Positions 30,470 through 45,973 of a stretch of DNA of 64,000 nt are shown piece after piece (the stretch's first letter is position 1; each line of letters opens with the position of its first letter). This stretch comes from Auricularia sp. M13 (taxonomy: Eukaryota; Basidiomycota; Agaricomycetes; Auriculariales; Auriculariaceae): assembly GCA_037042915.1 (NCBI GenBank), contig CM073197.1, positions 4,278,001 to 4,342,000 on the forward strand, written 5' to 3'. The position numbers and the translations under genes were made by a program. The notes under the pieces were generated by a model. It saw only the letters and a list, made by a program, of their open reading frames with translations. It did no database searches and was not told the origin of the DNA.

Positions 30470-30485
30470 TACAGTGCTTTGCATA

Positions 30486-30966
30486 CTGCCCTTTGCATAA
30501 TATTCCGGACACCTCCGAAAAAGAAAAAGCGGGCGGGGCCGACCGAACCCCCGACGAACACCGCCCGGCAGACAGTAGCGACGGTGCGTGGGCAGATTCA
30601 CTCAAGCCAAGTACATGGCTGGCCTCGGGGAGGCTGGAAAGCTCTGCCGCGCAGTTTTTTCGAAGAATAGGAGTGCCGTTGCGGTGTGCTCGCCCGCCAG
30701 CCCTCCGAGCTGCGGTTTGAACGGCATCGGCCGATTTGCCCAGCTCCGTCGTCGTGGACTGCGCAGACGACGAGCACACCTCTGCAGCTGAAATCTGCGG
30801 CGGGATGCATGTAGTAAGACGATGCAATGCACCCTACGTTAAAACCTGGCCTGCAGCAGTTGAAAATCGGTCGCTATCGTCTGCCGGGCTGGGTTGGTCG
30901 GGGTTTCGGTCGGCCCCGCCCGCTTTTTCTTTTTCGGAGGTGTCCGGAATATTATGCAAAGGGCAG
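30486..30966. mobile_element. 481-bp MITE inserted in the left terminal repeat
   Basis: Termini CTGCCCTTTGCATAATATTCC on the left and the same on the reverse strand at the right; the inverted repeats run about 100 bp (30486-30585, 30867-30966) with few mismatches. TA is duplicated at 30484-30485 and 30967-30968. Its ends align with those of the surrounding element over TTTGCATAA, CTCCGAAA and CCGACCGAA, so it may be moved by the same or a sister transposase. No coding content. Confidence 0.9.
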
Positions 30967-30968
30967 TA

Positions 30969-31022
30969 AGAAAGTGGAATCTCCGAAATTTTTTCGTCGG
31001 TCGGGCCCGACCGAACACTCCG
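30969..31022. repeat. left terminal inverted repeat of the 15.5-kb element (inner 54 bp)
   Basis: Identical to the reverse complement of 45904-45957. It includes the self-complementary core TCGGTCGGGCCCGACCGA. The outer 14 bp (CAGTGCTTTGCATA) lie at 30472-30485, beyond the MITE. Confidence 0.95.
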
Positions 31023-31796
31023 CTCGGCTGGCTGCGACAGCCTGCAAAATATGTATTTCGCACAAGAAATAGTACAGGGTACATCTGGTGTAACCTAGAC
31101 ACACATATATGCAGATTGGAGGTGTTTGGGAGGTTCCCATAGGGTGGTCTGTTGAGGGTGGTATGTGGAAACGGAACGACCGGGACTCGGAAGTAGGATG
31201 GCCGTTCCTGGACAAAAAGACGGTGATTTCCCGACTTGGGACCAAACGCGGGAATAGGCGGGAATGAGCGGGAATAGGCGGGAACAGGCGGGAATGGGCG
31301 GGAACAAGCGCCCGTAGCCCGGAACCAAAAAGAGGGAATAGGCGGGAATTTGGCGGGAATAGGCAGGAACACCATCAAAAAATTAAGCGTGCAATCAGCC
31401 AATCCCGCCCATTCCCCCTTGCCCGTGACCATCATTCCCGCCTATTCCCGCCATCTGAAGGGGGAACAGGCGGGAATAGGCGGGAATGCGCATGATGTGA
31501 TGGTTCTTGGATTTCTTTGTTTGTACATTCCTTCAGATTGACATTTGCACATGCCGATGCATTCCCGCCCATTCCCCCCTCTTTGATTCCCGGTTCGCAT
31601 TGCCTCGCGCTTGGCATCAGCTTTGCCAGATGATTGCCGGCATAACTCGGGACCTGAGCCACATGATACTCATCCGCATTTTCCAGCCAGACTCGATCTG
31701 CGGGCGCGCCGCGCCGATACTGTATTCCCGCCTCGACAAACGCACAAAGTTCAAAGTCCTACACTCTGTCCCGATCCATCCCCCAAACTTTGCTCC
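31023..31796. repeat. left subterminal GGGAAT arrays
   Basis: No gene. An outer array of GGCGGGAATAG/GGCGGGAACAG units in the + orientation (31237-31375), then mixed and inverted units (31425-31490 and 31560-31580). Further in, CT-rich leader sequence leads up to the ATG at 31797. Confidence 0.85.
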
Positions 31797-34700
31797 ATGT
31801 CCTCTGCCCATTCTACACTGCCTGTCGATATTGGTCAGTGCTGCTTGACCAGCGTCTCTCATGCATCCGGCTCATGGCCCCACTCAGAATATATACGGTG
31901 CATGCACCTCAGCATCGTCAATGACGTTGTTACCTGGGTAAGCTCTGCTTTCTATCTCGAATAATTACCACACTCACTACTGCACAATCAGACTGTCGCC
32001 GTCAAGGTTTGCTCCTTCCCTAGCTATCCGTTCACTATTCACGAGCTCCTATGCTCCAGGAAGCCAGGTTTCCCCTCGCCAACGACAACATTCTGTTTGG
32101 CTTTTTCGCCTTCCGCCAGGATCGCTTTTCTCACAACGCACCCACAGGTACCCACTTCATCTCCTCCCTGAAAACCTCTCAGCTGTATTTCTTGCGAATG
32201 TCATCCAAAACCCAGACTCTCCCCCAACAATCTGCGTCGACGGCAGCGTGGTTTATCCATCCCAAAGTTACATTGGTTTGCCCTGACGCTCTGCCTTTCG
32301 CAATCATTCTGTCCCGCTTATTACTATCTCAGATTCTGCCATACTCGACCACTTGCTACAGACTGTCCAAAATTCCAGTTCTCCACCGCCATCCTCCTTC
32401 ATGTCCCTATCACTTGCAAAACGTCTCGACTTTAGCACCTTTCCACCATACCAGCCAAGCGTTCGTCACCATCACCATTGTGCAGTGGAAAATAACCACT
32501 CTCCCCCTTCTGCACCACTGCCACCATGCGACCCTGCTCTTCGCCGTTCTTCAAGCTCCGTCATTTCGCGACTCACACAACTCCTTGGTGACCACCTTGA
32601 TCATCTCGTGCCTGAGTTGTTCGTGTGCCCAACTTCGCATTTTCCCATGTGTAGTGCTCATGCTTGCCTCATTTTAGCACAATTTCTCGCAATCTCCTCT
32701 GGCCGTACCCAGTTATTCCCGCATGTGCGAGCATGTTCCCCACAGAGCGCCATCTCATTCCGTACCACGGTCTCTGGTGGGCGCTTCATGGTATCCGGAC
32801 CGTTCGTCCCGAGCGCCCTCGGGATTTCATCGGGCCCATGGCCAATCCCTCCTTGCGGGGCTTCAGTGCACCGTACTCGCCCAAGCTGCTCCCTGTACAT
32901 CAGCCAGATTCTATCCTGCACTGGTGGCGACCGTGTGACCTCAGGTACATCATCCAACGCCGCGAATATCCCGACTTCATCCCCCCTCCTACCTTGCGCT
33001 ACATCTCTATTCCTCCCTGGTACCACGGCTCCCCACCCGAAAATCAGCTCTCGCTCTCTTATCTGACGGTCAGTCGCACATTTCCTCGTTCCGACATCTC
33101 CTCACCTTATCTCCGTCCAGAATTCTCCAATGTCTGATCAAGAACTGAGCAATCTCAAAGCCATCCAGCTTGCAAGCATCCGCAAGCTCGCGCCACGTGC
33201 GATTCATTCTCCTGGCTCATGAGCATCGTGTATACTACTCCTATGCCCTTCGCCCTCCTTCGCCTGTATCATTCACGCATTGAATTCCGACCCCTGGTGA
33301 CTAATGTCAAATGCCATCATGATTCCCGGATCATCCTGTTCGCATCGCTTTCATCGTGCGCATTCCGACTCACGACCTTTCTTTCTCCTGCCATGACTTA
33401 CGACGACTTTGCGTGTCGCACCGCCAACTGCCCATGTTTGGGTCTCTTACACCAGCTGTCCGCCGATGCCGTCCGTCGCTCCTGCTCATTTAGCCTCGCT
33501 TATCTCGCGCCTGACCCTCTTCCATAGGCCTATCAAGTCCCATCGGCTGACCAAAAATGTGCCAATCCTCGTTGCCAGCATGCAATATCGGCGCATGGCC
33601 TCCCACCAGCCGGGGGAAGCATTGCTGTCCCTGGTCGTCCAAGCTGTTACGGTTTTCGTCCTGTGCGTCTCTATCTCTCGATGTTTGCCTCATCTCATGC
33701 CGTGCGTTCTCCCTACCCAGATCAACGTCACTGTTCCCATCAGCCGCCGAGACCAGATCTGCGCCACTTGCGAACGCCCGTACAGCGACCATACCCCTCG
33801 CCCTGGCATTGAAGAGTTGGACACAGGGTCAGTCGCTCTATCGATCTATTGTCTCAGCCGCTTGCTCACCTCGCGGCGTCTCTAGCGTAACCAACTCGAA
33901 CTACAATTCTCTATCACTTCCCCCCCTTCCGCCCATCACCCAGCACCACGCTGCGCTCGAAGGCAACATACCCACAGCCTTTCCGACCAATGTTCCCAGG
34001 ATCACCGCTTACAACCAGCGTCACGTGACTGCCCCCACCAGTGTCCATGACACGCGTACAAACCATCTCCAACTTCGCCACGCTGAAGATCACCCAAATT
34101 TCTCTGTTCCGGTACCTCAGCACACTCGTGCGCGCGGGCGTGGAGGGCGTGGTACACGTGCGAGCCGCCCCACCCCCATCCCAGCAGCTCCGAATCTCCT
34201 TGGGCCAGGCTCTGGTATTGTTCAACAGCCCGTCGCTCAGCAGCCGGCAGCCAATCAGCCTGCTGGTCAGCAGCCAGCTGACCGTGTGCTTGACCATCCC
34301 AAGGTTACTCTATTTGTTTACACAATACCCTTCAGCGTAAGTAGTGGCTCCTGCCACCCCTGGCATTCGCGTCTCATCCGCTCGTAGATGAACGGATCCC
34401 ACTCATCTCAAGACCGTTCCTTCCCACCCCCATCGACTCTTTCCGTCGTGGGCGATGCATGGTCTTCCCTTATAAATGCGCTCGACAACGCCGACCTTTC
34501 GTTCTCCATCCAGGTGTCTGCGCTTCCACAAAAGACGAGGATGACGCCGCGTCCCAGACTTTTTTTGCATGATCTTCTCAGAGGCGCCCGTGCCGCCCTT
34601 ACCGATCCTCCCTTCATCTTTCGCTCGTCGCCAACCCCAGCTTCTGGGAGATACACGGACCTGTCACAGTTTCCGTTCACCTTCCTCAGTCGCTCGGGAC

Positions 34701-37487
34701 GCAGGGACAATACACAACTGAAGAACACTAGCCACCCACCCCCCATCTCTCGCTGCCATTTCACCTCGCTCATGCACCAGCACAAGATAATCTTCGACCG
34801 TGATCCTTGGCATCCCATCGTCACGCGCACTATGCTGTTCATCGGTCAGTCCACTAACTCCACAGGATTATTTTCCACTCACGCGGCTTTCCTAGCTCCC
34901 CGCTTTCACAACATCTACTCCTCGCTTACGCACCTACATACTCTCTACCCCGACATCCGTGCCGATGTACCCGATTACCGTCAACCCCATCGTTGCTTCG
35001 CAGCTCGCGTCCTTCACTGCGCCTATAACGACGATTTGAAGCTTCCTGCAGCAGAGGATGTACCAACTTACCTCGTGCTCATCCGGCAGGCGACCCTCCC
35101 CCTCCGCCACGACAGCACAGTCCCCCATCGCCATCCTCCGTAAGTTCTTCGTGTTTCTTAACCTCTCTTCTTTCATCGCATCCTGACTACCATTTAATTT
35201 GCTAGCAACATCACGCACAGCGCCGTCGCGTCACACATACCCAGAGCTCTACTTCCCATCGTAATCGCCGTGCGACGTCCATTTCCAGTCGCTCATCCGA
35301 AGATGGTGATCGTCAGCAAGATGAACCCGACCAACCCGTTCCTCAACAGCCTGTGAGTGTTTTTCCGTCCGCGCAAGTCCTCGCGTCCAATGCATCCCTC
35401 TCACCGCCGAATTCAGCGCTCTGTCCCTTCTGCTCCTTCCCCAACCCCGACCACTGTTTCCGAGAACCCTGCCCTTGTTTCTGCACGCATGTTTGCTGCG
35501 CGTTGGGAAGGCCAGGCTGCCGCACCTCGCTACTTTACCGTGTGTCTTTCCTTTGCTCTCGCTAGCACACACTGATACATTTACTTCTGCCTGTCCCGCA
35601 GCGAGCTTCAATATCCGTGCCTCATGCTCCGGTTCTTCCTGTCCAGACCTCTACAACTGTGCTGTCCACATCGGAACTCATCGACCTCACCGTCGATTCC
35701 CCTGAGCCCGTTCCTCTTGACCTGCCCGTCAACCCAAATCCTCCATGCCCATCGCACAGTGATACCTCTGTCCCACCGCATGTTCTTGAACAATTCACGC
35801 GCGACTATCTCGTCCCCGTGAACGGCGCACACTACTTCCCGAGGCGGAGAAATGGCGCGATATGGTCCATATTGACATCCGTGCCGCCTTCTACGCCAGC
35901 CAGCCAGCCTATGTCACGCTCACCGACGCTGTGTGTAATGAGTCAACACTGTCTTTGCAGTCCAAGTCCATCGACAGTGCTGCGCAACTCCTTCTACGCC
36001 TTTCGGAGCAGCTTGCATCGTCGCGCCACCCGTTCGATTACGTACCACAACTCATTGACCTTTCCGAGCTCGACATCGCCGGCGTCAGAGGCCAGTGCTA
36101 CGATGCTCCCTACATGATGTTTCTCGCCAAGCCTGCCATTACCATGTGAGCAAACACATCCTTCTTCCCTGCCGCCCATCTTTTCTGCCCTTCTCACTTA
36201 CTGGCAGTGACCGTGGCATACATACTGGGCCCGCGCTCAGCGTAATCCACCGCGCCATTGAGCTGGCCACGGAACGCTACTGGGATGGCCGTCAGGGCTG
36301 GAAAGTCCCTGTGATCTTACCACTCCATAACCAGGATCAGCTTTCTCGGTTGCGTGCCATTGGCTTCCTCTCTGCCTTGCTCGTATATCACTATAAGGAA
36401 TTGCCAACTGTTGTTCACCCCTTCCTCTTCCTTGTCACATTCGACTCCATGCAGTCTCTCCACCGCTGGACCGATTTCCGCCAGGCTCCCATCTTTTCCG
36501 AAATTGTCCATTTTCTCGACGCTTACCCAAGTTCTGAGCATGGCCTGCTGCCCCAGTCGGACGGTCCTCTTGATGCCGCTGTTCTTGATATCTACCTTGG
36601 GGTGAGTCCTGCTCGTTCCGCGTCCTTCCGCTTTAAATGGAAACACTTACACCCGTGGTTCAGTATGCCCTATGTTCCATACTACCATCGCGCACGCGCG
36701 ATCAGCACGACACTATATTCCTGATCCTTCTCCGAAACTATCTCCTCGGCATTCCACCACCGACGACAGCCGATGATTCCACCTTTGACCGCCTCCTCAC
36801 TGAGCCCCCTCTCATCTACGACGCGTTCCGTACTGGCTTCCACTCTTGCTGTCCAATTGACACTGCCGAAAAACTCTTTCCTCGGGGCGATCAACTGATC
36901 AGTATGCTCACCTCGTCCTGGGGAGGCCCGCCAAAGTGCGCTCGAGATGTTCTTACTCAGGTCGCCTGGCGTTTCACCAATATGGACATCACCGACAGCG
37001 TGTACAACATATCTGTCCTATCACGCTCGCTTGAACGCGCACCATCTCAACAACTTGCCTTCCTCATCGCATTCTTTGCGTGGATGAATGAACCTCTACC
37101 TGAAGAGGGCCCCGACGTCGTCGTGCGTCGTGCTCGTGCGTTCTTGAACGCCTGCACCGGTGTTGAATTCCTTGTCCCTGGCCGCATTGTTACTGTACGT
37201 TATGGGTGTTATGTTTCAAAACCTTGTCGTTCACACCCATGCTCAGATCCAATTCATCGAAGTTCCAGCCGGTCCGACCGTAAGTTACGACAGTCACAGT
37301 AGATGATATCGCTCACCAGCTCCCCTGCCAGCCCCAGCATGAGCTCGCCATTCACGTTTGCTCTCATACGGTCGATATTTCCTGTGGCCCTCGGTCTCGC
37401 CTGATATGCTCCGGTGTTCCACTGCCCCTCTCGGTGTACCTTGATTCCTGCTTCATCTCCTCCTTAGAAACCTTCAACAGCGTCTGA
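31797..37487 (+). CDS. very large Cys/His-module protein, HECT-like character
   Basis: Start ATG 31797 (MSSAHSTLPVDIG). Well-supported exons: 31797-31937, 31992-32147; a Cys/His region from about 33394 to 33840 with three modules (CRTANCPCL, CANPRCQHAISAH, CATCERPYSDH) joined by clean splices; a Pro/Gln/Arg linker; the 34388-35143 block (TMLFIGQSTN, APRFHNIYSSL); 35860-36150; 36210-37195; and a last exon ending ...LETFNSV* at 37487 after an intron of about 40 bp. Exact junctions between 32150-33390 and 35140-35860 are unresolved. Overall layout recalls large, uncharacterised basidiomycete proteins with zinc modules and a HECT-like C-terminal half (HVCSHTVDI near the end). I could not place a HECT catalytic Cys with confidence. 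A TGA at 32284-32286 interrupts one frame unless a weak 66-bp intron is spliced. Confidence 0.55.
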
Positions 37488-37515
37488 TACGAAATCCATG
37501 TACATTCTGCTAGTT

Positions 37516-40177
37516 TCACCCCCTACCAGCCCTACGTACAAACTCCATTTTATCAAATATTATGCTGTTCATGAACGGCAGTTCTTTGGCGCTCAAGTAC
37601 TGTTTTGCCCATGCGCTCCACTGTTCCTTTGTTACGCCCCGTGCGACGGTCATCAGTCGTGAGATTTTGCACAGCAGGTTCTCAAGAACTATTGGACTGT
37701 ACTCCACCTGCTTCAGTGCCGCTGGCGAGAACCGCACCTTGATGTGCTCATCCAACATCGTCAGAGCAAGCTCCACCTCCTCGCCGCAGTTCATGCTGAA
37801 TCCCAACAACTCCAATCCTTTGAACGCGCCTTTGTCTGCGTTCTCAGCCACCCACTTTGCAACATTGGCAATTGTGGGCGCATCACAGATACCCATTTCA
37901 GCCAGCCTGTTGACGAGGTGCAATCGACTCAGCGATGCAGATTTGAACGGCTTCACAGCCAGCGCTGCGATGAACTCGGCCGCTTCATCCCATGTCTTTG
38001 ACTTCGACTCCGTTTCCCCAACGAACTTCTCCCACTCGTCCATCAGGTCGTCCTTGAACCATTTATCCACCTTTTCCTCATCCCACGAAATTTCAGCGCT
38101 GTAGACGCCCCAAATAGTCTGATTTTGCAGATGCTCCTTCGCCGCTTCCTGCTCTGGTGCTTCTCAGCAAAACGGCAATTTTAACGGATGATGGCTCGCT
38201 TACTGCGGTCAAGTCGCTTCTTCCAGGCATTCGAGGGATTGGCCGCAGTGAGTAGTGCCTTCATCTCCTCTGCCGACGTTGGTACGTTGTTCTTCCAATG
38301 AGAGTTGAAGAAGTCCCGAGTTCTTTCGCATTGCCCAGAACCCAGGAATGCCAACCAGTTCGACAGACCGTGACGCGGTCGCGGCACGTCCACTGAGAAT
38401 GCACTTCGTGCCATTCGCATCAATTCCCAAGCTGCTGGGACTGGTTGAAGCTGATCGCCCCTTCGCTGCAGGTCTCGTTGACTCGTTGGATGCTTGCCGT
38501 CCATGTACCAGTCCACAGCTGCAACCCGCGGCGGTGTCAGAGCATTGTTCCCTTCAGCTGTAGCGAAGAAACCGATGCAAATCATCATATCGACCAGATT
38601 TGTTGGTGGATCGCCTGACGCATTGAAGCTGATGTCCTCTGCTGCGACCTTCTTGCCCCATGGCACCTTCTTCTTCTTCTTCCTTTCCTTTCCTGTTCCC
38701 TTCCTGGGCACAGGCTTGACCCTCGCTGGCTGTTTCCCCCCGGGAGACTCGACGCCCGTGTCGCCTTCGCGTTCCTCAATCAGCTCCTTCTCCTCCGGTT
38801 TCCCCCGCGGCAAGCTCAAGGCGCCAGTGCTGTTAGCCGTCAACCTATTGCCTGCCCGCCTTGGTGCTGAAATCCCGCCTCCCCCTGATTCGATTGCATT
38901 CTCCAGCCGCGATATGGTCTCGAGTGTGCCGTTGTTGTCCTTGAACCATATGCTGAGGTAGTTACGCAGCTCCTCTGTGTACCGAACGGCTCTGTGGGGC
39001 TCGCATGGCATTCGATCAATGCGATTGTGACCAAACACCAGATGAGGAACTCTCCCGAGCTTCTGTGCGATGTTCTCGTACGCCCAAATCGCTCGAGACC
39101 GTGCTGCCTGCTGCAGAGCGTCCAACACAGAACCTCGTCCGATGACGTGTCCCAGTGCCTGCCTGACTGTGACAGGCCTCTTGATCTCTCGCCTCAATAG
39201 TGCTTCGACGGTTGGAAACATGGTGACTTCAAACATGCTGATCGCCAGCAGCTCCTGGCATTTTGTCGTTATTGCTGACCATCGAGGTCGCACCGCGCCA
39301 ATCGAGAGCATCACCGAGATGGTAATCGTGTCGTCTGCTCGAGCGTTCGGTTCCAGGTTTGCAACTTCAACAATGATCTCTCTGCAACTTCGTCTTGCCT
39401 TCCCCCACCGTTCTCCTCTTCGACCCTCTGTTCCTGATTGATGTCTGGCCCATCCTCATCGTCCTGACCAGATAGCACATCGTCTCCGCCCGTCCGGCGA
39501 ACGATGCGTTCTTCACCGGCATTGCACGTGTGAGCCAACAGTTCGCCTGTACAAGCCTCATCATACACGAACGCCATGATGCTGCGTGCGAGTGCGTCGA
39601 CCCAGTCGATGCCACTCTGTCCCATAGCAGAATAGACGCCTTCGAGCGGTAAAGCGTCATCCAGGCACTTCATCTTTTCCGTTGGGAAGATCAGATGTGC
39701 CAGCTCTGGCAGTTCGAACAGGGCCCAGTCCTTGATATGCACGAATGACTGGCAAATCTCCACCTGGCTCCCAGCGTGAATCGCAAGCGTGTCGCTGGAA
39801 ATCTGATAAAGGGCTGGTAAGAACCGCATGCACTCCGTCGCGACTCTGACTGCCGCCACCGCCCGAGTATGAGGGTTGGCTATGATCTCCAAACTTCCGG
39901 CCGCAGAAGTTTGTGCCTCTTTCCACTGGCGCAGCGCGTCGAAGCTGGGCCGTTGACGGTCTTTCAGTCTGACGTTTGCGTGTCCGACTTCTGTGACGAG
40001 CGCCTCCCATTCAGTGACCACTGGCGCGATGCCGCCTATTACCGCATTCACTGGGGCCGCGACTTTACTCAGGAAGTGCCGGGGATCTTTAAGATGAACC
40101 CTCCGCTCTCGCAGAGACTGAGTACTGCACTGTGGGAAGTCCAGGACATGTGGAGAGCAGCCTACGACCTGCGACAC
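37516..40177 (-). CDS. large element-borne protein of unknown function
   Basis: Exons about 38204-40177 and 37516-38162, joined by a 41-bp GTAAGC...GAG intron that keeps frame (KKRLDRKAPEQEAAKEHLQN). Features: a helical N-terminal half (ALPLEGVYSAMGQSGIDWVD, IKDWALFELPELAHLIFP), an acidic stretch, a second half with LGRVPHLVFGHNRIDRMP, a Lys-rich linker (GKERKKKKKVPWGKK), SWLGF-type blocks and a helical C-terminus (ALAVKPFKSASLSRLHLVNR). No domain recognised. A frame change near 39370-39400 has no good splice pair and may be an indel. The start is uncertain: the ATG at 40177 would overlap the divergent gene starting at 40094 by 84 bp. Confidence 0.6.
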
Positions 40178-42922
40178 TCAGGAACAGCGCCTGAAGTCCA
40201 GCAGCACTGGGAGAGCAACGCGCCAGTACATCTCTGTCGGCTACTGACTCTTTCGCACAATTACCTGGCGTACCATCGTGGGACTTCGTTCGAGATTCGT
40301 GACGCACTGGCTGAATTCCAGAGAGCGCTTTTGGAAATCAGGGGCTGGTGCCAGTACTGCATTGCTCTAGGAGTCAGTGGCACGGAGCTGCGAGATCCGA
40401 GAACAACATTGGACCCAGCAGGGCGCGCAGAAGGAGTGTACGCTCGTGGAGTCTTTTTCTGGGCGGAGAGCGACACTCAGGCTGCGAATGACGCAAGGCG
40501 CTTCGCCGGGCACACACCAGTGTGGCTTGTGGAGCGCTACACCGAGCAGCACCATCAGATGGTGCGAGAACGAGCGGCGGAAGGGAAGAGTGAAAGGGGG
40601 AAGGTGTTGTGGTTGCGAGAAGAACACGCATACGGGAGTGCAATCGAATTCGATGTGCGTGCGGATCGGTTGGAAAAGCCGAATGCGTTTGCCATGCTCG
40701 CGCAAACTCAATTTTACGAGAAGGGCATGGAGCGCTGGCGACTGGGGAAGCAGAAGGAGACGGATGGAGAGGAGACAGGCACGAACATCGAGCTCATGCA
40801 GATTGTAGCAGAGGAGGAGTCGAGGCACAGGCAAGACGAAGGCGAGAATGACTCCAAGTTGGAAGGGCAACACGGTGGAGAGACAACTGAAGGGCCAGCA
40901 GAACCAGAAGGACCAAGCGAGACAGCGATGTCATCGGCCACGTATGCTGGTGTTCTCGCAGACGCGAACGTGCGTAAACGTAAGGGTGAGCGAAAAGGAT
41001 CATAATTTAAGCGGAATATGGTGAGGCTGACAATGTAATGGTGCGCAGATGGGGCCCGTAGTTCGACAGCGCCGCAGGGAGAGCACAAGCGTCGACGAAA
41101 TAACCGAACAGAGGTTCTGGAGAAAGAGACCGGGCAAGACTACCGCACGGCAACACAGAGTCACGAGCTGTATGTTTCGAGCAACGTCCCCGATCTGGAT
41201 TGGAACCTTGCACCGCCATGGTTTCCTCGACCGGTTTGTGACATGCGGCAGGTCATGGAACTAGTCGACTGGTCGGCTCGACGACAAGCCGATCTCACGG
41301 CGACAGTGCAGGAGGCCCGAATACCCTTGAAAATGTTCGGTGAGGGTGAGGCGAAGGAGAGCGCAGTGCCGGGTATTCTGGGCTTCCTGAATGCATACAT
41401 CGGCAAGGGCACAAACACGCGCAAGGCGACTCCTCCAACGGTAATGCGCTCGCTCTTCACCTGGGTGCAACTCAGACCATACCTATTGAGGAAAATGGCC
41501 AGCGAATCTTTCGACGGGAGCGTGCTGCTGAAATCGAACGACTGGCGCAAGGTGCTGAAGGCCGTCAGCCAGGACGGGGAGTGGCCCAGACTGATCGATG
41601 CGCTTGGTCTGGAGCTGTCTGGACAAGAGGGAGCACGGGAACGTGCTGACGATGATGAGCCAGAAGGGTCTGATGAAGAAGGCGAATGGGAGGATGTTGC
41701 CGACGATGGGAGGATGGCGGGTGAAATTTTGATTGGGCAGACGAGTCCCAGCGTGTACAGCTGGGATGAAAGCAGGCAACCAGCAGCCAGGGACGCCAAT
41801 GTTTGCATGGTCGGCAGCTATACGCCAACTCGGGATCTTTTTGACGGTCCTGACGCCAAGTTCGATGAGCCAGAAGGGAGGACGGAGAAGGAGCGTGGCC
41901 GGGTGGAGCCAAACAACTGGTCGCCATCAGCTTGTACCACATTCGTCTGGCAGTTTAACGACCGCGCGCCACCAGACGAGGCATGGGGAATGGTGGAGGC
42001 CAGCAGGGAGGAGATGGAAGAGGCTTCTTCCCACGGGGCCGGAGTCGAATGGTGGGACTACACCATGAATCGGCGACTACTTCTGCCACCGGAGACGGAT
42101 GCGCTTGTGGTTCTCGGCGGCGAGAGGTTACTGCGCCAAGTTGTATACCGCCTTCGAGATGCAAGCAGCTCGACCACCGTCTCATCGCGTAATGTTTGGC
42201 CCGCCAGGGTGCCAGGCAGACGAGCAGCAGAGGTATGGCAGACCGGGGTAAATCGGCTGAGGGACTGGGCAAAGAGGACGGAAATCGGCAGGACACAGCA
42301 ACTCGAATTGGGAGAAGTTGAAAAGACAAGTACATTGAGACCAAGGGAGTTCAAGAACCTGCGCCACTTCCTGAGCTCGACGAAGGAGAATGCGATGTTC
42401 GAAGGCTGCCCCCTAGAGCCTTACAACGGTGGAGACTTGTGGCTGACTGAGGAATGGCGACGACTACTGCTGTACGACGTTGCAGAGCACGAATTCCGGC
42501 ACACAGTGTTCACTCTGGATCTTGTCATCCGCCTGAGCCACCCAGAGGTCGCCAGTCTGCACCGAGAAGGTCCTGGAGAGAGATTCAATCTCCTTTCGCA
42601 ATGCTGGGGAGCTGGTGGATTCTCCCCGGACTACAAGGAGGGAAACTGGCTGTGTTCATCGGAGCGTTGGAAGCGAGCGAGGGCCCTGCGGACATTCTGT
42701 GGGTTCATGCGGTACTGGCCACGTGCATGGGAAACGTTGCCATCGGACGAGGAGGAACGTGGACTTGAGGAGCTGAATGATGAAGACGAGATGGGGAAGA
42801 TCGAAAAAAAGGTCTGGAGAACGTATCTGCAGATTCACTGGGATTACACACGATCGGTCGGTTTCTTGCCGTTCGTACGGCCCGAATTGCCTGCAGCTCT
42901 TGAGGAGCGGCTCTCAATGTAA
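40094..42922 (+). CDS. 921-aa element-borne protein of unknown function
   Basis: Exons 40094-40985 and 41049-42922 with a 63-bp GTGAGC...CAG intron; the frame is open throughout. It starts MNPPLSQRLSTALWEVQDMW. Trp- and Arg-rich, with YLAYHRGTSFEIRDALAEFQ, a long charged middle (Glu-rich, QIVAEEESRHRQDEGEND), DWNLAPPWFPRPVCDMRQVM, an acidic insert (DDDEPEGSDEEGEWEDVADD) and a C-terminal region with WRRLLLYDVAEHEFRHTVFT (an HEFRH string, not a classic HExxH site in context) and CWGAGGFSPDYKEGNWLCSS. No family recognised. The frame is also open upstream to 39869, so the start could be earlier. It is divergent from the 37516-40177 gene, and the pair is likely co-regulated. Confidence 0.75.
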
Positions 42923-43046
42923 ATAGGTAGTAGCCGTTTACGAAGAATGTATGACGTGTTTGAGCGCTTCAGCAAACGAGGTCGAGTGGGTGGAGTGGGG
43001 CCGGACCCAAAGGTGCTAACTTGACCGTGAACCATCAGCACCAGCA

Positions 43047-43368
43047 ATGTCCAACGATACCACGCAGACGATGAACAACAACGAGCATGCAAGGATCATG
43101 CAGGTGTGTGCTTATGATTACTGGCGGACATGCTCGAAAGCTGACGGGGACCGAGGGTACCATACACATCGACTTAAAGGACTGCCCGAGGAGCAGATTC
43201 GTGCATGGGTCGTTAGCCCCAAGGACTTCAATGCTCGTATGCACGCAATGCGGTGTGCACTTCGAGTCACAGGAAGCCGAGTATCAAGTGCCCAGAACGG
43301 CGTTGGATAGGGCCCCTAATGGTGATGTCATCGAGATTGAAATAACAGGCGTGCCGAAGAGGATGTAA
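43047..43368 (+). CDS. 89-aa CxxC element-borne protein
   Basis: Exons 43047-43103 and 43156-43368 with a 52-bp GTGTGT...GAG intron. It starts MSNDTTQTMNNNEHARIMQ, continues GTIHIDLKDCPRSRFVHGSL and holds a CTQCGVHF motif in the middle, ending EIEITGVPKRM. One more Cys upstream (KDCPR) could help bind a metal. Function unknown. It starts 124 bp after the 921-aa gene and ends 9 bp from the end of the convergent transposase gene, so the two transcripts overlap at their 3' ends. Confidence 0.65.
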
Positions 43369-43377
43369 AGCATAAGA

Positions 43378-45392
43378 TTAGAATACATCTGGAAATATGT
43401 GCCTGCAAAAATGAAGAGCGAGAATCCACCAATGGCGACGAACGGGAGGTTGTGGGGAGTTGAGATCTGTGCGAGTAGAAACATAGTTATAGAGGTCGGC
43501 AAGCTGGTCGTGATTTAGAGGGCATTCGGGGGGGAGGACATCAACACGGGAGAAACGAGAAGGACGATGAGGGCCGGGATGCGCGGGTTCATCTGCGTGG
43601 GAATTATTGTCAACATTGGACCGTAGGATGTGGCGATCCTGAAGCGCCTCCCAGTCGACGCCGTACTGCGCAAGGTCATCTTCTAATACTGGCTCTGCGA
43701 CAGTATTGTCATCGAGGGGGAAGTGGCGCGGTAGATCGTAGCCACGCAGGCCGTTGCGAATGTGGCCGTAGTGGTACATGGAGATGGGCGACTCATGGGT
43801 GCGAGCAGAGAGCTGACGGTTGCTAGCAGCGATATCCATCGGATGATTGTTCCAGTGGTTGGCCCAGGTTGAGAGCTCATCGTTGATGACGGACAGAAAC
43901 ATGTGGTGTAGGAGCCAAATGTGCGCGGCATTGCCACCATCTAGGCCATCGTAGAACTCGAGCTCGCGAAAGAACGAGTACCACTTGTCGACGACATTGC
44001 GCACCACATCAACCCAAAGCCGCTCGATGCGAATGTTGTCGACGCTCCTACAGGATCGGTCGATAGTCAGTATTGTAGAGATGGCTACATACAGGAAGGA
44101 CATACCTGCCCCAGAGATACGATAGAACACCTCGCAGAGCGGCCATGGCGTTCGCGACTTCGACATTCTCCATGCCGCAGTCACCCCGACAGCGATGAGG
44201 CGTGACCCCTGTCGCTGAGCGGATGGAATTGAACAAGTCGAGAACAGTTGCGGCACGATTGTTGTTGCTGGCGCGGATGCCGAGGACGTAGCGCGAGTAT
44301 CCGTCAATGAAAGCATGTATGACGATTTTCCAGCAGATAAGGCCTGACGGCGAGTGAGGTGGGAAAAAAACATGCATAGGAGAGGCGTACCATGCTGCCC
44401 ATCATGGTGCCACAGCGAATTTGGTCCAGCAACTCGGTAGATTCGACGCTCGGGGAGAGGACGTCGAAAGCGTCGCGTGCGCTGAGTAACGCGGCGAATA
44501 GATGCTGAAACACGATCTTTCTGGACCTTGTGACCATTATCGCGAAGAGCACCAATGACAAGACGGCGACCATAGGAGGGATACTGGACGAGGATGGATG
44601 CGACGAGCCGGTCGAGTTCAAAATTGGACATTGTGGAAAATGCATTGACACGGGAGTATGGATTGCGAATGGGATTTTGATTGGGAAAATGCTGGAACGC
44701 AGGCGCGCACCGAGAGCCAAGTCCATGCTCTAGCTGTCGGCGACGGATGGTACGGGGAGATACACCAAGGTTAGCGGCAATGGAAACCTTGGATCGATGA
44801 AGGAGCGAGGTCCGAAGGAGGACAGGGTAAATATCCTTGCGCGGCCGACCACGAGGTCTTGAAGTGGATGACTGTGTTGCAGAGGCAGAATAAAGCTCGG
44901 TGATCTAGAGTGATGTGAGCGAATTGGCGGAGAGGATATAATATAACAACGAACATCGATTGGATGCGGAGGATCGTGGATACGTGTTGCAGCTTGATCA
45001 AGGTCTTTGAGCATGTCATGGAGGCTCTGGCGCAGAGTCTCTCGTTCATCTCGAGGGAGCAGTCCATCATGCTGTGAACGAATGGGATGAGAGGTTGGCC
45101 AGGCATGGGAAGACGGGAATTTCTTGCGCACATGGATAGATAGGTCCAAGAAATCTAAGACGCGTCGGCGAGTGTTGGGAATGTGATTGGGCAGGGCCGC
45201 GGTACGGTTTGGGATGTTCACAGCGAGAGATACATCGCGCTCAAGCTCATGGTACAGAGCACGAAGCTCGCTGGCATTCGAGATGGACATGGGTGAGTAA
45301 GAAAGGAGAGAGTCGGCGGCTTGCGATGGCCGGTGTGTGGTGATGAGTAATGATACGTGCGTACTTGGCAGGGCAGAGATGAGCTGATTCAT
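43378..45392 (-). CDS. DDE integrase-type (rve-like) transposase
   Basis: Exons 44955-45392, 44391-44904, 44106-44343 and 43378-44047; introns 50, 47 and 58 bp; 619 aa with no break. The N-terminal part is helical with a helix-turn-helix-like block (GRPRKDIYPVLLRTSLLHRS, AANLGVSPRTIRRRQLEHG). The catalytic core has Asp314 (SLWHHDGQHG), Asp372 (HRCRGDCGMENV) and Glu405 (DNIRIERLWVDV), giving D-57-D-32-E. AHIWLLHHMFL and WNNHPM follow. It matches the basidiomycete integrase-core family that I know from many genomes. The start could also be ATG 45290 (MSISNASELRAL). A last 3' intron after LADLYNY is possible and would change only the C-terminus. All three catalytic acids are present, so it may be active. 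Confidence 0.85.
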
Positions 45393-45903
45393 GCTTGATT
45401 GCCGGGATCAGGGGAACAGGCGGGAATAGGGGGGAATGGGCGGGAATGGATGATGGGAACGGGAAAGCTTTGTTTGTTCAGAGGAATCAAGTTGAAGATG
45501 AACAACGACCAAGAGGGGGAATGGGCGCTAATCACTTTGATTAACGGAGGCAGTGCAGATCCTGGGCGCCTATTCCCGCCCATTCCCGCCCAATCCCGCC
45601 TATTCCCCCCTATTCCCGCCTATTCCCGCGTTTTCCCGCCTATTCCCCCTTGACATGTTTTTCGCGGGTCGGTCCGATTTTTGTCCAGGAAACGACCGGA
45701 TACGGAAGTCGGTATTTTCCGATGCAGAACTGCCCCGCGGCCCCCCGCCACCTCGCGACTCAACACCTGTTGCCTAGAACGCACGGTGTTCACGCCAGTG
45801 GTAATCAGGGCATCATCATATGTCAAAAGGAGCACAGCGCGCCCTCCGAAAGGGGCTGCAAGTGTGTGCCGATTGCTCCAGTGAGTGGAGGAGCGGAGCA
45901 AGT
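45393..45903. repeat. right subterminal GGGAAT arrays
   Basis: The inner array is in + orientation at 45410-45450 and the outer array inverted at 45568-45650 (ATTCCCGCC units), the mirror image of the left end. Next to it lies GTCCAGGAAACGACCGG, the counterpart of the left GTTCCTGGACAAAAA motif. No gene. Confidence 0.85.
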
Positions 45904-45971
45904 CGGAGTGTTCGGTCGGGCCCGACCGACGAAAAAATTTCGGAGATTCCACTTTCTTATGCAAAGCACTG
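45904..45971. repeat. right terminal inverted repeat, 68 bp
   Basis: Uninterrupted copy ending TTATGCAAAGCACTG at 45971, followed by the TA target at 45972-45973. Confidence 0.95.
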
Positions 45972-45973
45972 TA

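Follow-up and report, generated by a model that had tools for sequence, protein, structure and literature searches.

A TA-flanked multi-gene transposon of Auricularia sp. M13 and its probable place in an IS3EU-related lineage

Target-site duplication length serves as a criterion for assigning transposons to superfamilies, and it reflects the spacing of the cuts made by two active sites. In integrase relatives it corresponds to how far apart the two strand-transfer points lie, which is set by the way in which two active sites straddle the bent target DNA, and retroviral integrases duplicate 4-6 bp (PMC10045372). Descriptions of IS3EU elements give TA..TA termini and, in the usual case, duplications of 6 bp (PMC10045372), and those of rust fungi are described with TAYGG..CCRTA ends and a 6-bp duplication; large multi-gene fungal IS3EU elements are known as well (PMC12730594). 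We have analyzed a stretch of 64,000 nucleotides (the window) from Auricularia sp. M13 (GCA_037042915.1, contig CM073197.1, positions 4,278,001 to 4,342,000), which contains a large TA-flanked DNA transposon at 30472-45971. The transposase groups with IS3EU by its core, whereas the element to which it belongs fails both structural marks. We consider it likely that this DNA transposon belongs to a lineage related to IS3EU in which the ends have changed, the spacing is DD32E and TA is duplicated.

The element measures 15,500 bp end to end, or 15,017 bp once a nested miniature inverted-repeat transposable element (MITE) and one TA are subtracted. Its ends and its transposase gene lie at the following window positions.

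30470..30471, no strand: TA, left target-site copy
30472..30483, plus strand: outer 12 bp of the left 68-bp terminal inverted repeat (TIR)
30484..30968, no strand: family B MITE of 481 bp (30486-30966) between its two TA copies (30484-30485 and 30967-30968), nested in the left TIR and interrupting it
30967..31022, plus strand: inner part of the left TIR (56 bp), a perfect match to the right TIR
31244..31490, plus strand: left subterminal array of the GGCGGGAATA type, in 10-bp steps in its first part
43378..45392, minus strand: transposase gene with PF24764, rve and D-57-D-32-E, in four exons (45392, or the ATG at 45290, to 44955; 44904-44391; 44343-44106; 44047-43378)
45411..45655, minus strand: right subterminal array of the TTCCCGCCTA type
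45904..45971, minus strand: right 68-bp TIR, intact
45972..45973, no strand: TA, right target-site copy

An initial annotation, made from the sequence alone, had placed a TA-flanked element of about 15 kb at 30472..45971, and these coordinates, including the TA on either side, are correct. It had also reported perfect 68-bp TIRs. The match is indeed perfect, but only when the nested MITE, which had gone unmentioned, is set aside: the left TIR consists of two pieces (30472-30483 and 30967-31022) that together pair with 45904-45971, and the longest unbroken perfect arm is 56 bp. Such an arm across 14.9 kb is far beyond chance. The tips read TA + CAGTG..CACTG + TA, with CAGTGCTTTGCATAA as the end sequence. 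Behind the TIRs the subterminal arrays mirror each other, as had been noted before, with CGGGAA on the left at 31249, 31259 and so on to 31299 in 10-bp steps, and TTCCCG on the right at 45573, 45583, 45613, 45623 and 45633. Counted in both orientations, this motif occurs 13 times in 31200-31520 and 8 times in 45390-45670, compared to 8 times in the remaining element and 29 times in the 48.5 kb outside it.

The transposase gene adjoins the right TIR and its catalytic triad is complete. In the spliced model, which has 585 residues counted from the second ATG, the residues D280, D338 and E371 give exactly the D-57-D-32-E spacing that had been read earlier, and the rve-like core is recognized by Pfam as PF24764 (1.6e-51, 171 of 194 positions) and as rve (1e-7, at its cut-off). 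The N-terminal part has an AT-hook-like GRPRK (weak, below the cut-off) and a weak helix-turn-helix (HTH) match. PF24764/rve is the sole transposase-like Pfam match in the tested open reading frames (ORFs) and gene models that lie between the TIRs. No relatives of the transposase were found in plasmids, and of the stretches that matched the search pattern in viral contigs (46) and prokaryotic genomes (93) none was confirmed. A sequence search of the PDB gave no match for the transposase or for gene A, the first of the cargo genes described below; a profile search returned four matches (E 0.17-0.91), two of them to an integrase core of the human T-lymphotropic virus type 2 (HTLV-2) kind, which were judged to be at chance level.

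The genome itself (52.1 Mb) holds 36 stretches that match PF24764, compared to none in 14 control genomes, and all relatives compared come from this one genome. The stretches group into the window locus and 19 others (18 if C10:2292 and C10:2306 represent one split gene). Gene models were built for 18 locus sets, 16 of which have the catalytic motif (all except C10_2292 and C9_737), and these 16 models and the window form the 17 rows of the tree. Two sister clades were obtained, both with support 100/100: clade I contains the window, C8_1667 and six further rows, and clade II nine rows. The window and C8_1667 form a pair within clade I (65% identity, support 100/99), and only these two have a D-to-E distance of 32. 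The distance is 34 in the other 14 rows measured, where C1_8882 stands outside the measurement and an intron missed in the model of C8_806 inflates its D-to-D value. PF24764 and rve are found in 7/7 aligned members, which represent both clades, and clade I shares an extra stretch of about 24 residues between the HTH and the core.

Two nearly identical elements of clade II (C13:88821-99714, 10.9 kb, and C10:3572462-3586244, 13.8 kb) have TATGGTGTACC..GGTACACCATA ends (TATGG..CCATA) and carry subterminal repeats of their own. Both of the two read are flanked by 6-bp duplications, CCCGGT on C13 and AGTACA on C10. A further copy in clade II, L031, terminates in CCGTA at its point of divergence from L032, and the edge of L032 lacks that TA. 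These same-genome elements with the IS3EU signature share PF24764 with the window transposase and are 41-42% identical to its core, the published IS3EU elements being compared by description. The initial annotation had concluded that no named superfamily fits. This was too strong, as IS3EU/GingerRoot is a named superfamily close to it and the canonical form of IS3EU is present in the same genome; the large TA-flanked element, the rve-like transposase and the cargo remain from that interpretation. The window element differs from IS3EU in the following: it has CAGTG tips and not TAYGG..CCRTA, its family shows a 2-bp TA duplication (13/13) and not one of 6 bp, and its transposase is of the DD32E and not the DD34E type and carries the insert common to clade I.

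An alternative is that the TA duplication is ancestral to clade I or common in fungal IS3EU-like elements, in which case the window element would be an ordinary member of a group whose variation has not been catalogued. Indeed, duplication length varies among the relatives, being 2 to 15 bp in IS481 and about 4, 15 or 25 bp in IS481EU (PMC10045372). However, an IS3EU-type element with a TA duplication was not found in the literature searched, and the published descriptions of IS3EU give a 6-bp duplication together with either TA..TA or TAYGG..CCRTA ends (PMC10045372, PMC12730594). We regard this explanation as quite improbable.

The duplication of the TA can be read directly for the nested MITE, which has its own inverted ends and a TA on either side. 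The right TIR, as well as the matching ends of three MITEs elsewhere in the genome (MITE-A, 491-502 bp, bearing both ends of the element), run uninterrupted through the point at which the nested MITE was inserted, and this uninterrupted site has a single TA in the right TIR and in two of the three MITE-A, and AA in the third (C6). As the empty site has one TA and the filled site has a TA on both sides, MITE family B duplicates TA. Moreover, a TA duplication and none longer was found in 13/13 insertions examined in this genome, namely the big element, three MITE-A and nine MITE-B, the nested one included. Past the TA there are no matching bases in seven of these insertions, a 1-bp match in five and a 2-bp match in one, the short matches being about chance expectation; there is thus no hidden longer duplication. 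A genome-wide search for CWGYSCTTTGCATAA yielded 32 matches, all but one (C9:446864) preceded by TA, and 0 for the reversed-pattern control.

These counts also bear on the possibility that the TA is simply part of the element's own ends and that no real duplication exists. The TA..TA termini of IS3EU (PMC10045372) are a precedent, and since TA is identical on both strands a single insertion is undecidable. Yet the pair of one TA at the empty and two at the filled site contradicts this for MITE family B, and the near absence of matches past the TA (none in 7/13 insertions, only 1 or 2 bases in 6/13) goes against it as well, and we consider it very improbable indeed. Most simply, the window lineage would attack TA with a stagger of 2 bp.

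In the three MITE-A, 274-282 bp align to the right end of the element and 222-231 bp to its left end, at 84-92% identity; they are deletion-derived short forms of it. The initial annotation had raised the prospect of other copies with different ends; these three, although short, have both ends and the TA flanks (3/3) in common with the element. The ends of MITE types A and B are partly alike, and a third related type, CAGCCC-, was present among the genome-wide matches to the end pattern. Three insertions were seen in ends of these same TA families or immediately against them: the nested MITE lies in the left TIR of the window element (30484-30968), on C11 (C11:2233985-2234831) a MITE-B occupies the TA next to a CAGCCC-type MITE, and the left flank of the C9 MITE-A, just left of C9:1731945, ends in TACAGTGCTTTGCATA. 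This suggests that the TA families insert into the TAs of their own ends. The CAGCCC-type MITEs have CAGCCCTTTGCATAA ends and TA flanks and were seen at C10:3599235-3599580 and C11:2233985-2234348, with single matches elsewhere. One variant of MITE family B (L062, C1:2050856-2051632) is 777 bp long, about 296 bp longer than the other copies, and is TA-flanked.

CAGTG-type tips combined with a TA duplication are usual for Tc1/mariner. The window element has both; its transposase differs in having PF24764/rve with a weak HTH/AT-hook region and no Tc1/mariner-type Pfam match. It is conceivable that these are the ends of a TA-specific family of the Tc1/mariner kind, which mobilized both the element and the MITEs in trans, and that the genes inside, the rve-type transposase included, are captured passengers of a hitch-hiking composite. 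The TA rule of Tc1/mariner (PMC10045372) is in line with this, and the MITEs show that the ends can move without the coding part. However, PF24764/rve is the only transposase-like Pfam match in the sequences tested between the TIRs (the genome was not searched for Tc1/mariner elements bearing these ends), the transposase with its complete triad adjoins the right TIR, and repeats of the TTCCCGC or TTCCTGC type are also found upstream of the related transposases C1_259 and C9_3214. We therefore consider such a composite unlikely. Other fungal lineages have also arrived at TA, as is shown by PHISTA and ESTA of the rust fungi, which are likewise large multi-gene elements with a TA duplication; by their descriptions they are set apart by Harbinger-type and EnSpm/RAG1-like transposases (PMC12730594), whereas that of the window is integrase-type (Pfam: PF24764/rve only). 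IS481EU of parabasalids shares with the window family an integrase-type core and a duplication length that shifts within the lineage, but it has TNT..AYA ends and duplications of about 4, 15 or 25 bp (PMC10045372), neither of which is found in the window family.

If the element is indeed a member of an IS3EU-related lineage, the N-terminal HTH/AT-hook region of the transposase would bind the TIRs and the 10-bp subterminal arrays, and the enzyme would excise the element and join it to TA with the strand-transfer points 2 bp apart rather than 6. The change to TA would have arisen within that lineage, alongside a replacement of TATGG by CAGTG at the tips and of 34 by 32 in the D-to-E distance. 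The two-residue shortening falls in the same part of the tree as the TA change and may have a causal role. On balance we lean towards the wider claim that an integrase-fold lineage shifted from a 6-bp to a 2-bp TA-specific duplication, independently of Tc1/mariner and with matching changes in termini and active-site spacing, and that both kinds occur in one genome. Duplication length, usually treated as fixed within families, can here be compared directly between TA and six-base relatives. A 2-bp relative with a fixed TA would show that this length can change within a lineage, its structural basis could be read from a natural pair in one genome, and some fungal TA-flanked MITEs would not be Tc1/mariner.

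Several observations weigh against this interpretation. The tree tool flags the window and C8_1667 among the long branches; within clade I the ends were read for the window family only; and the transposase is linked to the ends by its position only. The connection to IS3EU runs via the same-genome signature elements. Although filled and empty sites could be compared for the nested MITE, as the initial annotation had proposed, an empty site of the big element itself did not turn up. Finally, the MITE-A sequences stop short of the subterminal arrays, so these may not be needed.

A TIR scan of 29 relative loci (L010-L038) gave scores of 17 for L025 and L026 only (best of 30 shuffles 14.5), at one place within the transposase gene region, and these were taken as chance. 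In the upstream DNA of two clade I relatives an LTR (long terminal repeat) element and a paralogous gene were met and the ends were not. Immediately upstream of the C8_1667 transposase is the end of a likely LTR element (C8:1660933-1666078), and after it comes a 287-bp stretch that is also present on C11 and C2 (L011:1-359 = C8:1666007-1666365). In L021 and L019 a stretch upstream of the transposase resembles the N-terminal part of the transposase, and on C10 and C1 a stretch like it is present in inverted orientation, some 9-10 kb away from the transposases.

The perfect repeats had been taken to suggest recent activity. Both the perfect TIR and the lack of internal stops in the frames agree with a young insertion, although a 68-bp clock is short and the left end is now split. 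This copy is probably immobile because of the split left TIR, and no second full-length copy was found in the genome search; a mobile copy was thus not demonstrated.

Besides the transposase, the element carries the following genes.

32051..37280, plus strand: gene A, intron-rich, both ends unsure, no Pfam match (797-residue main part tested)
37516..39829, minus strand: gene B, without a Pfam match; its relatives lie close to other PF24764 transposases
39869..42922, plus strand: gene C/D, with a modelled intron (40942-41061) and without a Pfam match; belongs to a large family in the genome

The earlier count of four further genes, three of them large, was nearly right, the difference being that the gene model splices 39869-42922 into one gene. 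Pfam searches with genes A, B and C/D and the relatives of C/D gave nothing above the cut-off, PHROGs gave no match for four window ORFs, tblastn of genes A, B and C found no match in the set of loci searched, and a scan for transfer RNA (tRNA) genes reported none. A fold of the gene D C-terminus was discarded (mean predicted local distance difference test score, pLDDT, 39).

The initial annotation had asked whether the five genes travel together. This was not demonstrated: gene B co-occurs with related transposases, and the C/D module is widely shared. Gene B (query ORF 38181-39311) has six other matching stretches at four places, and three of these four are within 16 kb of a PF24764 transposase (expected 0.05, binomial p about 6e-6, with the 16-kb span picked after the data were seen). 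Near C8_1667 and C8_2474 it is on the strand of the transposase and 13-14 kb downstream; near C9_737 it is about 5 kb upstream and the match is weak (1.7e-4); and at C10:986482 there is no PF24764 transposase nearby. Gene B may be a travelling passenger or an accessory factor and, common to related elements and without a Pfam match, forms a concrete target for study. Gene C/D would rather be a module common to many other loci. Gene D is found at at least some 60 other places in the genome, three of which have a clade I transposase no more than 6 kb away (expected 0.26, p 0.002), two of these three being copies of one element; at 16 kb the expectation is 0.7 (p 0.03), and the other 57 places have no such transposase within that distance. 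None of the 12 other places of gene C is near a PF24764 transposase. At 11 of these 12 gene C is within 4.5 kb of gene D, and at C1:9.20 Mb the two halves share one frame of 1184 residues, so that C and D look like one gene. Beside one copy of gene D (L047:2379-3098) there is a frame with a Rab-GAP TBC domain.

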